64,000 nucleotides of DNA. It comes from Actinobaculum sp. oral taxon 183 str. F0552. Lineage in GTDB: Bacteria > Actinomycetota > Actinomycetes > Actinomycetales > Actinomycetaceae. The notes beneath the pieces are model-generated. The model saw only the letters and a program-made list of their open reading frames with translations, made no database searches and was not told the DNA's origin. Where the stretch lies: the NCBI RefSeq assembly GCF_000466165.1, contig NZ_KE951428.1, positions 1-64,000 of the forward strand, read 5' to 3'. This document shows, one piece after another, positions 1,665 through 21,790 of this stretch. Every line of letters begins with the position of its first letter. The stretch's first letter is position 1. The translations under genes and the position numbers were made by a program.

Positions 1665-3257
1665 TCAGGCGGGCTGGTCTACGCGAACGGGCTCGAACTC
1701 GACCGTCGACGTGGAGAGGTCGACTCGCCGGAGGACGGCCGTGATCTCCCGGCCGCGCTCCAGGCCGTCTCCCACGACGGGAGCCAGGACGGCCGGCTCG
1801 CCGAGCATGACGGTGCCGGATCCGCGAAGCGGAACCACGGTCTGCTCCGACGAGCCTCCCGGGGCTTCTCCCGCCCCGCCCCTCCCGTCGCGCCGACTTT
1901 TCCGGCCTTCGCGCCGGCGCCGGTGGAACACGTCGACGACGACGCCCTCGAACTCCTCCCCCTCCCGTCCGGCCAGGACGAGGGCCTCGACGGCGTCCAG
2001 GGCTCCGTTCTCGTACTGGCAGACCACGCGCGCTCCGGCCGTCATGAGCGTGGGAAGCCGGTACAGCCCCTCGTACACCCACTGCGGGATGCCCTCGCCC
2101 GCGCAGACGCAGCGGCAGATCTCCAGCCCGTACCGATCGACGAGCCTGCGAAGCGGCGCCGTGACGTGGGCGTAGCGCGACGCCAAGGCGGCATGCTCGG
2201 GAGCAGGGACGCCGCGGTGGCGCCCTTGCTCCTGCGACCATCCGAACAGAGGGAGGGTATGGTAGCCGGCGCCGCGGAACAGACTGGCAGCCTCGGTGAG
2301 GAACGCGGCCCCGGCGGGGGTGTCCCCGCCGACGGAGCGCACGAAGTCCCTGTAGTCCACGTCGTCCGGCCAGTCGAGGCGGAGGGCGCGGGCGACGGAG
2401 CGCAGGCGGTCGACGTCGCGCGGCATGGCGGGCGGCATCGTGCGGAGGACGCCGACCGCGGCCCGGCTCATGATGTCGGCGGCGGCCATGCCGGTGACCA
2501 AGGAGATCTGGGCGTTCCACTTCTCGACGTCCGTCAGGGCCCGGAAAGCGAGTCTGTAGCCGCCATCGCCTTTTTCGACGACCTGTTCGGGAAGCGCCAG
2601 GGACACGCCTCCGCGCGCGATCTCGCGTTCGACGCGCAGTGAGCCCACGCGCCGGAGGAGCTCGGGGAAGTCCCCCGGGACGCCGGAGTCGAGGGCGGTG
2701 CGTCCATCCACAGCGTCCTGGACCTGCTCGTAGCTGAGCTTGGCGACGGAGCGGACGAGCGCCAGCTCGACCCACTTGTGGCGGAGTTCCCCGTCGGGGT
2801 TGAGGTGGAGGTACCACAGGTAAGCGGGACGGTCCTCGTTGGGGAGCAGCGAGGCCGCGCCGTGGGACAGCGCGTGCGGGTGCAGGGGAATGGAGCCGTC
2901 CGGGCCGTAGACGGTCTGGGTGCGCCGATGCGTCTCCCTCTCGAGCGCTCCCCCGGGCCGGATGAAGAGCCCGACGGCCGAGATCGCGTAGCGGACGAGG
3001 TAGCCCTCCCCCTCTCGCTCGATGTGCACGGCCTGGTCGAGGTCCATCGAATCGGGCGGGTCGATCGTCACGAAGGGGTATTCGCGGCGGTCCGCCAGCG
3101 CCATGTCGGCCAGGCCCGCCTCGGCGCTGGCCGCCGCCTCGTCGAGGACGTCGTCGGGGAAGTCCTCCGCGATCTCCAGGCGCTCGCGAAGCGCACGCAG
3201 AACCGCGCTCACCGTCTCGGAGCCGGCTGTGTTCGTCGTCATCGGGCGCTTGGGCAC
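1665..3257 (-). CDS. RNB-domain ribonuclease (RNase II/R superfamily, short actinobacterial form)
   Basis: Predicted processive 3'-5' exoribonuclease of 530 residues. The catalytic RNB motif TIDPPDSMDLDQA is at residues 64-76 and supplies Asp66, Asp72 and Asp74, matching Asp201, Asp207 and Asp209 of E. coli RNase II. The fourth Asp (210) is Gln75 here. There is no long N-terminal cold-shock region, so the protein is shorter than RNase R. A low-complexity basic/Gly/Ser stretch near residues 450-475 interrupts the C-terminal part. The start is GTG at 3257, with an ATG five codons in as alternative; neither has a good Shine-Dalgarno. It is encoded upstream of purF on the same strand with an 85-bp gap. 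Family assignment is firm, substrate unknown. Confidence 0.85.
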   Translation of the reverse strand: MPKRPMTTNTAGSETVSAVLRALRERLEIAEDFPDDVLDEAAASAEAGLADMALADRREYPFVTIDPPDSMDLDQAVHIEREGEGYLVRYAISAVGLFIRPGGALERETHRRTQTVYGPDGSIPLHPHALSHGAASLLPNEDRPAYLWYLHLNPDGELRHKWVELALVRSVAKLSYEQVQDAVDGRTALDSGVPGDFPELLRRVGSLRVEREIARGGVSLALPEQVVEKGDGGYRLAFRALTDVEKWNAQISLVTGMAAADIMSRAAVGVLRTMPPAMPRDVDRLRSVARALRLDWPDDVDYRDFVRSVGGDTPAGAAFLTEAASLFRGAGYHTLPLFGWSQEQGRHRGVPAPEHAALASRYAHVTAPLRRLVDRYGLEICRCVCAGEGIPQWVYEGLYRLPTLMTAGARVVCQYENGALDAVEALVLAGREGEEFEGVVVDVFHRRRREGRKSRRDGRGGAGEAPGGSSEQTVVPLRGSGTVMLGEPAVLAPVVGDGLERGREITAVLRRVDLSTSTVEFEPVRVDQPA

Positions 3258-3335
3258 GTCACCCAGACTATCGGCTTGATATCGCCAAACGCCACCGTAG
3301 GTGACCTCTCCCGCCGCGCCCCGGTCAGGCGCCGA

Positions 3336-3716
3336 TCATCGCCATCTCGCCAGGATCGCGTCGCCGTAGAGGGGGACCAGTCCGGAAAGGCTCGCGCGCA
3401 CGCCCGACGCGCTGACCTCCCCCGCGGCCACGGCCTCGTCCCATGTGGATCTCCCCACACACAGGTCGACGAAGACGCCGATCGCCATCTCGACGACGTT
3501 GGGGGGAGTCCCCCGGCGATGGCTCGGACCGGGAAGGATCTGCACGGCGCCGGCGAAGGGGACGCGCACTTCGACGCTGCGTCCGGGGTGGCGCTGCGCG
3601 AGCTCCCGGAGGGCGAAGCGAGCGGCGGTGCGGGCCTGGTCCGCTTCCAGGGTCTCTCCAGCCGCCGCCCTGGCCAGGAGCGGCATGGCCTGATGCGATT
3701 CGATCGTTCCCGGCAT
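3336..3716 (-). CDS. Sterol carrier family protein (actinobacterial, about 126 aa)
   Basis: The 126-residue protein carries the signature seen in small actinobacterial proteins annotated as sterol carrier family: RSVEVRVPFAGAVQ, then RGTPPNVVEM, then a W-x-x-A-V-A-A-G-x-V-x-A-S-G stretch. The true function in bacteria is unknown. The open frame continues upstream to 3920, but the ATG at 3716 is preceded by CTGGGGAGC and begins exactly where family similarity would begin, so I chose it. The next gene downstream on this strand (RNB) starts 79 bp away. Confidence 0.7.
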   Translation of the reverse strand: MPGTIESHQAMPLLARAAAGETLEADQARTAARFALRELAQRHPGRSVEVRVPFAGAVQILPGPSHRRGTPPNVVEMAIGVFVDLCVGRSTWDEAVAAGEVSASGVRASLSGLVPLYGDAILARWR

Positions 3717-18291: not shown

Positions 18292-19119
18292 ATGAGCAGC
18301 GACGGGAAGGACGCCCCCCGAGAAGCCGAGGACGGCGGGGAGAGCCTGGCATCGGCGACCCGCGCCCTCACAGAGGCGCTGGGGCAGCTCTCGCGCGCCG
18401 TCAAGCGGGAAGCGGGGAGAAGAACTCAAGAGACGGCGAAGAAGGCGCAGGAGACGGGGAAAAAGGCGCTGTCGTCCTCGCTCCGCAAGACCTCCGAGGA
18501 GCTCGCCGCAGTCGCGTCGTCGATCGCCGATGCGCCGGAAGACGCCCGCAACGGTCGGCGCCGCGGCCGCGGCAAGGCCGAACGCACCCGCCAGGACATC
18601 CTGGAGGCAGCCCATCACATCTTCGCGGCGAAGGGCTATGAGGGGGCGTCCGTCGCCGACATCGCCGCCGCAGCCGGATACACGAAGGGTGCGCTCTACG
18701 CGAACTTCCCATCCAAGGAGGCCCTGTTCCTGGAGATGGCCCGCGAACTGCACCGCAACCAGAAGGACCTGCTCGACCAACACCGGAAAGCCGGAACCGA
18801 GCCGCCGCTGCTCTGCGACTCTCCGGCGGAGTATTCGGATAAGGAACTCGAATCCATCCTGATCGGCCTGGAATGGTGGACCTACGCGGTCCGTCACGAG
18901 GAAGCCCGCGAGGAAGTGGGAACGATGTGGCGCGAAACCCTCCACCTGACGGCCGGCATCGTCGCGCAGGGCAACGGCAGGCCAGAGCCTTCGCCCGACG
19001 ACATCAGCGCCGCCTTCGGCCTGGTGGCCGTCCACACGCTGGCGAACATCGCGGCCGCCATCATCGGCCCCGAGGAAGTGCGAGCTATGGCGGAAAGCCT
19101 GATAGAGCGGAAAGCCTGA
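18292..19119 (+). CDS. TetR family regulator with long N-terminal helical extension
   Basis: 275 residues. The TetR helix-turn-helix begins only near residue 97 (RTRQDILEAAHHIFAAKGY, then VADIAAAAGYTKGALYANF). The first 90 residues are charged and Ala-rich with a heptad-like run (RRTQETAKKAQETGKKALSS), predicted to form an amphipathic or coiled-coil helix rather than a membrane segment. A C-terminal ligand domain follows. It diverges from the other TetR gene and shares a 199-bp intergenic region with it. No strong ribosome site precedes the ATG, so a later start is possible, but the extension is in good codon use. Confidence 0.8.
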   Translation: MSSDGKDAPREAEDGGESLASATRALTEALGQLSRAVKREAGRRTQETAKKAQETGKKALSSSLRKTSEELAAVASSIADAPEDARNGRRRGRGKAERTRQDILEAAHHIFAAKGYEGASVADIAAAAGYTKGALYANFPSKEALFLEMARELHRNQKDLLDQHRKAGTEPPLLCDSPAEYSDKELESILIGLEWWTYAVRHEEAREEVGTMWRETLHLTAGIVAQGNGRPEPSPDDISAAFGLVAVHTLANIAAAIIGPEEVRAMAESLIERKA

Positions 19120-19177
19120 TAGAGCGGGCCGCGGAATCCCCAGGCGCCGTGAGCTCCTCGTCTCATTCACCTTTTCG

Positions 19178-19214
19178 GGCAACGTGTGGGCCTGACGACA
19201 ACATGCACGTTGCC
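19178..19214. promoter_or_regulatory. 9-bp inverted repeat upstream of the XRE-ImmA gene pair
   Basis: Perfect arms GGCAACGTG (19178-19186) and CACGTTGCC (19206-19214) are separated by 19 bases. It sits 67 bp before the first gene of the pair and 59 bp after the TetR stop. It could be an operator bound by the XRE protein or a weak terminator of the TetR gene; there is no T-run, which favours the first. Confidence 0.45.
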
Positions 19215-19280
19215 GCGCGACTTGTTTTCCGGTTTTATGCGAGAATTTGAGGAACAAGGCATCGAACTATGGAGGCACAA

Positions 19281-19958
19281 GTGGCAGAAATCGCACCGGT
19301 CCGGAGAGAGCCCGAGATTATTCCAGCCGCCGAGGCGAAGACGTATTTGGCGTCGATGGGCATCCCGCTTGAGGCGGTCTATCATGCTCTTAAAACTGGC
19401 GAAATTGAAGCTAGTAACACTTCAAAATACGCGCCATTGACTGCCGCGGGAACAAAGAGGTGGATAGCTGTAGTTGAGGTTGCACGCCGAATGCTAGACG
19501 AAAAAGAAAATTGGGTGCGAAGTGACGCACAAAACCGACCTATTGCGGTATCTTCCTCGAAGGAATACACACTCGCTTTCGTCGGTGGAAATGCTGAGAC
19601 AGGAGACCCTCGGCCAGAAGCGAATCCCAAAGCAGCACGACGTAAAGGGCCAGCCACAGAAAGAGCCCACAAAATAGAACAATTATCAATTGTGCTACCA
19701 GAATCAATCACTGGAGAAATTGAACGTGCAGAGAATGTCGAGCACGAAAGGCCTCGCATAGGAAATTGGGTATTACTTTACTATCGCGATAAGGAAGAAA
19801 TCCGCTGCGAGATATCGTTTCCTTCTGGAGTCGAAGACGGGCAGTTCACTGGGTGGTTTGTTCGCGTTCTTCTCGAATCTTTGCCTTACAAAGATGCTTC
19901 ATTGGAAAACACCCCAGAAGACATCGGCGGAGAAGACATTGACTTCTATATCGCTTGA
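19281..19958 (+). CDS. Hypothetical protein, partner of the XRE-ImmA metallopeptidase
   Basis: 225 residues, no family recognised. A GTG at 19281 is preceded by GGAGG with five-base spacing, better than the ATG at 19269 that forms the GGAGG itself. Seen in the protein: an N-terminal part with EAKTYLASMGIPLEAV and a possible small helix-turn-helix-like region, a middle Arg/Pro/Lys-rich linker (GDPRPEANPKAARRKGP), and a C-terminal beta-rich domain (NWVLLYYRDKEEIRCEISFP) ending in acidic DIDFYIA. Base composition is clearly more AT-rich than neighbouring genes, a sign of transfer. It overlaps the next gene by 20 bases. A role as the regulated or toxic member of a two-gene unit is inference. Confidence 0.75.
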   Translation: MAEIAPVRREPEIIPAAEAKTYLASMGIPLEAVYHALKTGEIEASNTSKYAPLTAAGTKRWIAVVEVARRMLDEKENWVRSDAQNRPIAVSSSKEYTLAFVGGNAETGDPRPEANPKAARRKGPATERAHKIEQLSIVLPESITGEIERAENVEHERPRIGNWVLLYYRDKEEIRCEISFPSGVEDGQFTGWFVRVLLESLPYKDASLENTPEDIGGEDIDFYIA

Positions 19959-21099
19959 CGATCGGCTCAACCCTGGACGCATCAAGCTCGCCCGCATGCG
20001 TCGCGGCTGGAATCAGGCAAAACTCGCCAGCCGGCTGGGACTGACTGATCGGACGGTACGCGCATACGAAACGATGGGCGCTCCACCGAATGCCCTTTCC
20101 GAGCTCGCGGATGCACTCGGCTTCCCCGAGGGATACTTCACCCTGCCATCGGAGCCGACCGTCGAGACCGAAAGCATCCGATTCCGCGCAGGCAGGGCTA
20201 CTACCCGTCGTCAACGAGACGCGGCCGTCGCCGCCGGAGCTTCAGGCATCGAGGTGGATCGTTGGATCGCCGAGCGTTTCACCCTCCCGAAGGTCGACCT
20301 TCCGACGTTGGAGGGCGAAACCCCTCGGTTCGCAGCGACGATGTTGCGCAGTCTGTGGGGGCTCGGTTCCCGGCCCTTGCCGAATCTCATCCAGTTGGCG
20401 GAATTCCGAGGCATCCGCGTCAACGGGCTACCCGAAGTCGCAGCGTCAGTCGATGCGTATTCGACGTGGTATGAGGGTTTTCCCCACGTCTTCCTCGCAC
20501 GAAGCAAGACGCCGGAACGGGCGCGATTCGACCTCGCCCATGAGATCGGACACCTCGTGCTGCACCGACATCGCGGCCCCGGTTCCCGTGCCGAAGAAGA
20601 GCGGGAGGCGGACGCATTCGCTTCGGAATTCCTCATGCCTGCGGAGAGCGTCGTCGAGTATCTGCCGCCCAATCCCACGATCGATGAGATTCTGCGAGTC
20701 AAGCGCGCTTTCGCCGTATCGGCCATGGCTCTGACCTATACGGTCCACAAGCTCGGGCGCATGACCGACTGGATCTACCGGACGACGTGCACGGCCCTGT
20801 CGCAGCGAGGGTTTCGGGGCGGCGAACCGGACGGCATGGTCTCCTACGAGCGATCGCGAGTGTTTCCGCAAATCCTCGCCTCGTCGAAACTCGGCGTCGT
20901 CACGGGGAAGCGCATCGCCCTGGAGCTTCGGATCCCGGTCGAGGACGTCCGGGCGGCAATGCTCGACGCCGAACTCCATGCGGTTCCCGACGGACCCGGG
21001 CAACGCCTCGTGGATCGCGTGCGGCAGAGCGCCCCCGACCGCACCGGTCGTCGACCCGCACGGTCGGGGGCGCGCGCCGAAGGCCTGCGCCCCGTCTGA
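19939..21099 (+). CDS. XRE helix-turn-helix fused to ImmA/IrrE metallopeptidase
   Basis: 386 residues. Residues 8-55 form an XRE domain (LARMRRGWNQAKLASRLG then TDRTVRAYE). The central part carries the COG2856/ImmA-IrrE protease domain with the zinc motif in RFDLAHEIGHLVLHRHR and the downstream metal-ligand region EREADAFASEFLMP. Family members cleave repressors or other regulators (ImmA of ICEBs1, IrrE of Deinococcus). The open frame extends back to 19858, but TTG at 19939 follows GGAG with six-base spacing and gives an N-terminus just before the helix-turn-helix, so I prefer it; ATG at 19996 would cut the domain. The C-terminus is Arg-rich. Confidence 0.85.
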   Translation: MTSISLDDRLNPGRIKLARMRRGWNQAKLASRLGLTDRTVRAYETMGAPPNALSELADALGFPEGYFTLPSEPTVETESIRFRAGRATTRRQRDAAVAAGASGIEVDRWIAERFTLPKVDLPTLEGETPRFAATMLRSLWGLGSRPLPNLIQLAEFRGIRVNGLPEVAASVDAYSTWYEGFPHVFLARSKTPERARFDLAHEIGHLVLHRHRGPGSRAEEEREADAFASEFLMPAESVVEYLPPNPTIDEILRVKRAFAVSAMALTYTVHKLGRMTDWIYRTTCTALSQRGFRGGEPDGMVSYERSRVFPQILASSKLGVVTGKRIALELRIPVEDVRAAMLDAELHAVPDGPGQRLVDRVRQSAPDRTGRRPARSGARAEGLRPV

Positions 21100-21106
21100 G
21101 ACCCGC

Positions 21107-21790
21107 CTACTGTGCGCCGTCCGGCGATTGCCCTCCGCGATCGGACGCCGGCGCACCCTTCTCGCCTGAGGCCTTCGACGGGTCGGTGCCGTTCACCGGC
21201 GTCTTCGACGGCTCCGGCTTTGATGTCCGCGGCGATGAACCGACGTCCGCGAGGCCGCGGGGATCCGCCTCGGCGCTGACGAAACCCGACCTTCCGGCCC
21301 CCGCCCCCGCTCGCTTCGCAGCGGTCTGCGGCGCTGCGGACGCCACACCATCCGCGCCATCCCGCGGCTCCGCGCCCGCGCCATCCCGCGAAGATTCCGC
21401 GGGCAGCTTCGCCTTCAGCTGGGAGATGGACAGGGAGAGGAAAATCGTGGCGAACAGCACCGACGCCATGTTCAGCAAGGCCTGCCTGTCCTCGCGAACC
21501 AGCCGGCAGCCCTCCTTCCAGTCCTCGACCACCGAATCCGCTTCCTTCTTGAGGTCGTCGTCGCGATCGACGTCGGAACTGCCAGAGGAGCCGTAATACT
21601 TTCTATACCGGCGTTCGACGAGGTCGGAATCCGGCTTGTCGCCCTTGCCGTGGCCTGAATGGTCGAATGCCAAAGGGGCGCAGGAGAGTTCTTTGTCATA
21701 CCCCAACGGTTCGTATGATGGTGGAACGAAATACAGCCATCCGAGAACTATGATCGCCAACACAACGCAAATTGAACGTGATTTCACCAC
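21107..21790 (-). CDS. Hypothetical two-helix membrane protein with disordered tail
   Basis: 227 residues, no family recognised. Helix one is residues 7-23 (ICVVLAIIVLGWLYFVP), then an extracytoplasmic charged loop with His/Gly/Asp-rich FDHSGHGKGDK and two conserved-looking Cys, then helix two near 105-122 (LLNMASVLFATIFLSLSIS), and a long Ala/Ser/Pro/Gly-rich tail. Start is GTG at 21790 (a second GTG follows immediately) with AAAGGG five bases upstream. It converges on the XRE-ImmA gene with an 8-bp gap, so they probably share no transcript. Confidence 0.65.
   Translation of the reverse strand: MVKSRSICVVLAIIVLGWLYFVPPSYEPLGYDKELSCAPLAFDHSGHGKGDKPDSDLVERRYRKYYGSSGSSDVDRDDDLKKEADSVVEDWKEGCRLVREDRQALLNMASVLFATIFLSLSISQLKAKLPAESSRDGAGAEPRDGADGVASAAPQTAAKRAGAGAGRSGFVSAEADPRGLADVGSSPRTSKPEPSKTPVNGTDPSKASGEKGAPASDRGGQSPDGAQ

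Follow-up and report, generated by a model that had tools for sequence, protein, structure and literature searches.

Described RosmerTA systems and the locus

RosmerTA systems are directed against phages; their toxins are diverse and are paired with an antitoxin of the ImmA type (PMC10440598). The system of Gordonia phage Kita is toxic as well as antiphage, and its toxin, which has a predicted membrane-located C-terminus, depolarises membranes (PMC10440598). RipAB (Spr1630-Spr1629) of S. pneumoniae is a toxin-antitoxin pair of the Rosmer family in which RipB antagonises RipA, which acts on DnaN (PMC12795458), and RosmerTA homologues of S. thermophilus give protection against few phages (PMC12322248). 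Loci in which a COG2856 Zn-peptidase is fused to an Xre HTH, with a toxin in the same operon, were described by Makarova et al. 2009 (PMC2701414). In PD-lambda-2 it is the Xre-peptidase protein itself that is toxic (PMC9519451), so that roles can differ between systems.

In the window, by which we mean the whole stretch of 64,000 nucleotides that was analysed, an earlier note had pointed out two overlapping ORFs, the downstream one encoding a protein with an XRE helix-turn-helix and a HEIGH motif. Both observations hold. The upstream gene, rmrT (19281..19958, + strand), encodes a predicted RosmerTA toxin of 225 aa from a GTG start with GGAGG 5 nt upstream; an alternative form of 229 aa would begin at ATG 19269. 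The downstream gene, rmrA (19939..21099, + strand, TTG start), encodes a predicted RosmerTA antitoxin of 386 aa, and the two reading frames share 20 nt. RmrA carries an N-terminal HTH_3 domain (E 1.7e-6) and an ImmA/IrrE-type Peptidase_M78 domain (E 8e-20), with the zinc-binding HEIGH at residue 201 (20539..20553, + strand). The HExxH motif is present in 29 of 30 aligned RmrA relatives and a downstream Glu (E221) in all 30. The host genome comprises 2.37 Mb in 73 contigs. Two further RmrA/ImmA-like matches were seen in it (G000:C72:2504-2830 and G000:C35:58951-59724), the second with internal stops in the searched frame.

The earlier note recognised no family for the 225-aa protein. This view had to be given up, as profile search against PADLOC-DB 2.0 places the protein, over nearly its whole length, in the defence model RmrT (PDLC03935, E 4.8e-44), a model matched by 34/34 aligned RmrT homologues. 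The 386-aa protein matches the RmrA model (PDLC03949, E 2e-125), likewise near full length. Judged by these matches, the pair is a predicted RosmerTA toxin-antitoxin and phage-defence module, an already described system, in an Actinomycetaceae genome. The function guessed at in the earlier note, toxin-antitoxin or phage defence, was thus right in kind, with both models matched and the genes co-occurring widely, and the upstream protein, being RmrT, is no member of a known housekeeping family.

Like other RosmerTA pairs in PADLOC, the window pair shows near-full-length matches, toxin-first order, overlapping genes and an XRE-M78 antitoxin; it differs in host lineage, in an unusually AT-rich rmrT and in being known here from sequence alone. 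With the Kita system (PMC10440598) it shares an ImmA-type antitoxin next to a toxin that falls into no other known family. The RipAB antitoxin (PMC12795458; NF052239) is, like RmrA, an XRE and ImmA-like protein, but RmrA scored 95 bits against the NF052239 (spr1629/RipB antitoxin) model, whose curated cut-off is 335. The fused Zn-peptidase and HTH with a toxin in the operon also recall the COG2856-Xre loci (PMC2701414), where the partners are mostly RelE or PIN toxins, whereas the window RmrT matches no Pfam family; searches of NCBIfam, PHROGs and PDB with its sequence likewise gave nothing usable. In the RosmerTA literature we found no experimentally tested member of this RmrT sequence family. 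The module as such will not surprise a specialist, the system itself being known; what is added here is the family name, an operator candidate, a structural hint and orphan toxins. RosmerTA is widespread, and an operator candidate, a confident RmrT model with invariant residues and natural orphans now make toxin activity and the role of the peptidase directly testable.

Pairing, orphan copies and the upstream DNA

RmrT homologues were collected by protein, profile and family searches. A same-strand RmrA ORF lay immediately 3' of RmrT in 32 of 35 loci, with gaps of -38 to +66 nt, and in a second set RmrA was adjacent in 20 of 26. After the two sets had been merged by hand count and four loci present twice removed, RmrA directly followed RmrT in 49 of 57 non-redundant loci from Actinobacteria and Proteobacteria. 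The earlier note had tied its reading to the two genes occurring together elsewhere, and they do. Hosts include Rhodococcus, Nocardia, Mycobacterium, Tsukamurella, Kocuria, Rothia and Arcanobacterium and, for plasmid-borne copies, also Streptomyces, Pelobacter and alpha-, beta- and gammaproteobacteria. RmrT and RmrA protein distances were strongly correlated (Mantel r 0.885, 0/2000 permutations), a correlation that is partly shared descent and so shows the proteins travelling together rather than contact between them. No RmrT was found in phage records. A first scan of genome contigs with RmrT alone returned no relatives, nor did a scan of viral contigs with RmrA.

More distant RmrA proteins stand behind other partner genes in related genomes and in Gordonia phage Howe (L009, L010, L011, L012, L020, L021, L098:1860-3526); the upstream partners in phage Howe (gp35), L009 and L020 gave no match to the PADLOC RmrT model. 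At one locus (L007) a lone RmrA of 46% identity, with no RmrT upstream, follows a GntR-like regulator gene and reads RELGH, the first H of HExxH being replaced by R.

The remaining eight of the 57 loci hold an RmrT without adjacent RmrA, and five Tsukamurella species are among them (L054, L078, L080, L081, L082, L083, near position 3001-3690). An acyl-CoA-ligase-like gene, recognised by eye, adjoins the orphan in at least four of the five species, and their genomes encode other, more distant RmrA-like proteins elsewhere. Such orphans are odd for a potent toxin and are what fits a toxin role least well; the copies are either harmless or restrained by something else.

The DNA upstream of rmrT contains a conserved 26-bp element, TTCCGGTTTTATGCGAGAATTTGAGG (19227..19252, + strand), which ends 28 bp before the gene and has the consensus TTCCGGTTTTGTGCAAAAATTTGAGG. 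In the 21 paired loci of the close clade a copy was found 20-64 bp upstream of RmrT without exception. Since the element had first been spotted by eye in these same sequences, leave-one-out scoring serves as the fair test; it gave scores of 26-42 as against at most 8.2 in shuffles. Over 20 loci, pairwise identity was 0.77 in the element and 0.31 and 0.28 in its flanks, and the value for the element was about unchanged in a genus-thinned set (n=11). The window holds a single copy, and with up to 3 mismatches allowed the 22-bp core has no second match in the genome. None of the six orphan RmrT loci from the genome contigs set has the element, and the Tsukamurella orphans lack it. It is also missing from the more distant RmrT loci and from the lone-RmrA locus L007, and it therefore belongs to the close clade; in viral contigs it was not found.

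In four Nocardia loci with a variant element (GACCGGTTTT...), the RmrA recognition helix starts with I or M rather than with the T usually found there, a T that is retained in a fifth Nocardia, whose element is of the standard form. The four variant loci probably represent one event. Because the element occurs once in the genome, is absent from the orphans tested and covaries with the RmrA recognition helix, we regard it as a candidate for, and probably, the RmrA operator; it perhaps overlaps the promoter, as we infer. The element has only weak dyad symmetry, which counts against this reading: of 1000 column shuffles, 62 were as good. A decayed locus was seen in Nocardia puris (L087:2932-4266), where RmrT is truncated, no HE[LI][GA]H was found in RmrA and the 26-bp element is kept.

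A different operator had been proposed in the earlier note, namely a 9-bp inverted repeat (19178..19214, no strand assigned) with arms at 19178-19186 and 19206-19214. The repeat is indeed present, but its autoregulatory role is unsupported because none of the relatives has it; moreover, when the 161-nt intergenic stretch was shuffled 300 times, an arm of such length arose in 5 cases. The repeat was rejected as operator, for which 19227-19252 fits much better.

Predicted structure of RmrT and possible modes of action

AlphaFold2 predicted a compact alpha/beta protein for the window RmrT (pLDDT 85.5, pTM 0.81) and again an alpha/beta fold for a divergent member (pLDDT 89.7, pTM 0.84). Searched with VIA-align 2, both models ranked NaeI first (window RmrT: Z 7.2, 3.6 Å over 137 residues; divergent member: Z 7.8, 3.7 Å over 138 residues), followed by ThaI (3ndh), EcoRV and SfiI and then by Hjc and SPARDA nucleases; DpnI, SwaI and BglII were added in the list of the divergent model. 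In an alignment of 52 RmrT sequences the invariant or nearly invariant positions include R69, W78, T107, G108, K/R122, G123, W163, E177, S179, W192 and R195.

The pair is very probably a chromosomal RosmerTA toxin-antitoxin module that works as follows. The two overlapping genes would form one operon for the toxin RmrT and for RmrA, which would be antitoxin, autorepressor and metallopeptidase in one. Most likely the XRE HTH of RmrA binds 19227-19252 and represses the operon, and RmrA would also bind and neutralise RmrT. A cue from phage infection would disable RmrA, possibly by a cut that the M78 domain makes in the HTH linker of RmrA itself or in RmrT, and RmrT, freed and overproduced, would then stop growth and abort the infection. 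The module itself is grounded in family identity, gene overlap, co-occurrence, co-divergence, an operator-like element and the zinc motif. RmrT toxicity, neutralisation by RmrA and phage defence would follow the example of other RosmerTA members, and operator binding, trigger and peptidase substrate are what we infer beyond this.

How RmrT might act was considered within the RosmerTA frame. An atypical nuclease toxin of PD-(D/E)XK fold, which would damage DNA or RNA once released, is suggested by the common NaeI ranking of two divergent models, by the further nucleases behind it and by Foldseek, where EcoRV was the top match of the divergent model (probability 0.85). That match has an E of 0.01, however, and no Foldseek match below E 0.001 was obtained with either model; with Z below 8 as well, the nuclease likeness may be a common arrangement only. 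Human Rep15, which is no nuclease, scores nearly as high as the nucleases. Among the 52 sequences, E177 is the sole invariantly acidic column and the sole acidic column conserved above 80%, residue 179 is S, and the D...(D/E)xK catalytic signature is absent. RmrT was not filed as a PD-(D/E)XK nuclease because of the low Z, the nearly equal score of Rep15 and the absent signature, and a toxin of this kind appears rather unlikely. It is also unlikely, and slightly more so, that RmrT has a restriction-endonuclease-like fold with a new active site around the invariant E177, together with R69, T107, K/R122, S179 and R195, silenced by a metallopeptidase that, as autorepressor, acts on a 26-bp operator of its own. 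The name RosmerTA and the kind of antitoxin, common to both systems, would speak for a toxin that, like RmrT-D5 of Gordonia phage Kita, depolarises membranes. Yet the highest 19-residue Kyte-Doolittle mean of the window RmrT is 0.68, and no hydrophobic segment, and hence nothing like the membrane-located C-terminal region of the Kita toxin, was found in this compact alpha/beta model; we consider such a toxin very improbable.

The pair might instead be no toxin-antitoxin system at all, but a stress or mobile-element switch of the ImmR/ImmA or IrrE kind, with the XRE-M78 protein as regulator and the 225-aa protein as its target or co-regulator. The M78 and HTH architecture would suit such a switch. 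So would the literature, in which inactivation of the repressor ImmR by proteolysis depends on ImmA, and recA induction is under the control of IrrE. RmrT also persists without RmrA in Tsukamurella. Against this, both proteins match RosmerTA models, the 26-bp element is single and lies at its own operon, so that no regulon is visible, and the eight neighbour genes that were checked include no integrase or recombination gene. A switch without a toxin is accordingly judged quite improbable, and the RosmerTA module is kept as the best explanation.

Base composition and genomic surroundings

The unlike base composition of the 225-aa gene, already remarked upon in the earlier note, is real: rmrT has a GC content of 0.49 and a GC3 of 0.43, rmrA of 0.65 and 0.73, and the whole window a GC of 0.67. 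Among 48 paired loci, it is here that rmrT and rmrA differ most in GC3, and the homologues show no general composition bias between the two genes; the gap is therefore a peculiarity of this genome. Partner swapping was dropped as its source, the window RmrT and RmrA having the same nearest relative.

In the window the pair is surrounded by TetR, MFS, ABC ATPase, SDR and aldehyde dehydrogenase genes and does not lie inside a defence island, a point against the RosmerTA reading. When 20 kb around the pair of a same-genus genome were compared with the window by blastn, only rmrA DNA was common to both, so that, within the sensitivity of blastn, the module occupies different places. Twelve of the homologues examined are plasmid-borne, and several adjoin restriction-modification, NACHT, VapC or RES genes. 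Neighbours of the plasmid homologues were an N-6 DNA methylase, a restriction endonuclease and a RES pair, NACHT, VapC, and Vsr with a cytosine methyltransferase.

Two minor features flank the pair in the window. Converging on rmrA, a 227-aa protein with no Pfam match is encoded at 21107-21790 on the - strand. At the 3' end of the TetR gene upstream of rmrT, a perfect 17-bp tandem duplication, GCGGAAAGCCTGATAGA, occupies 19090-19123.
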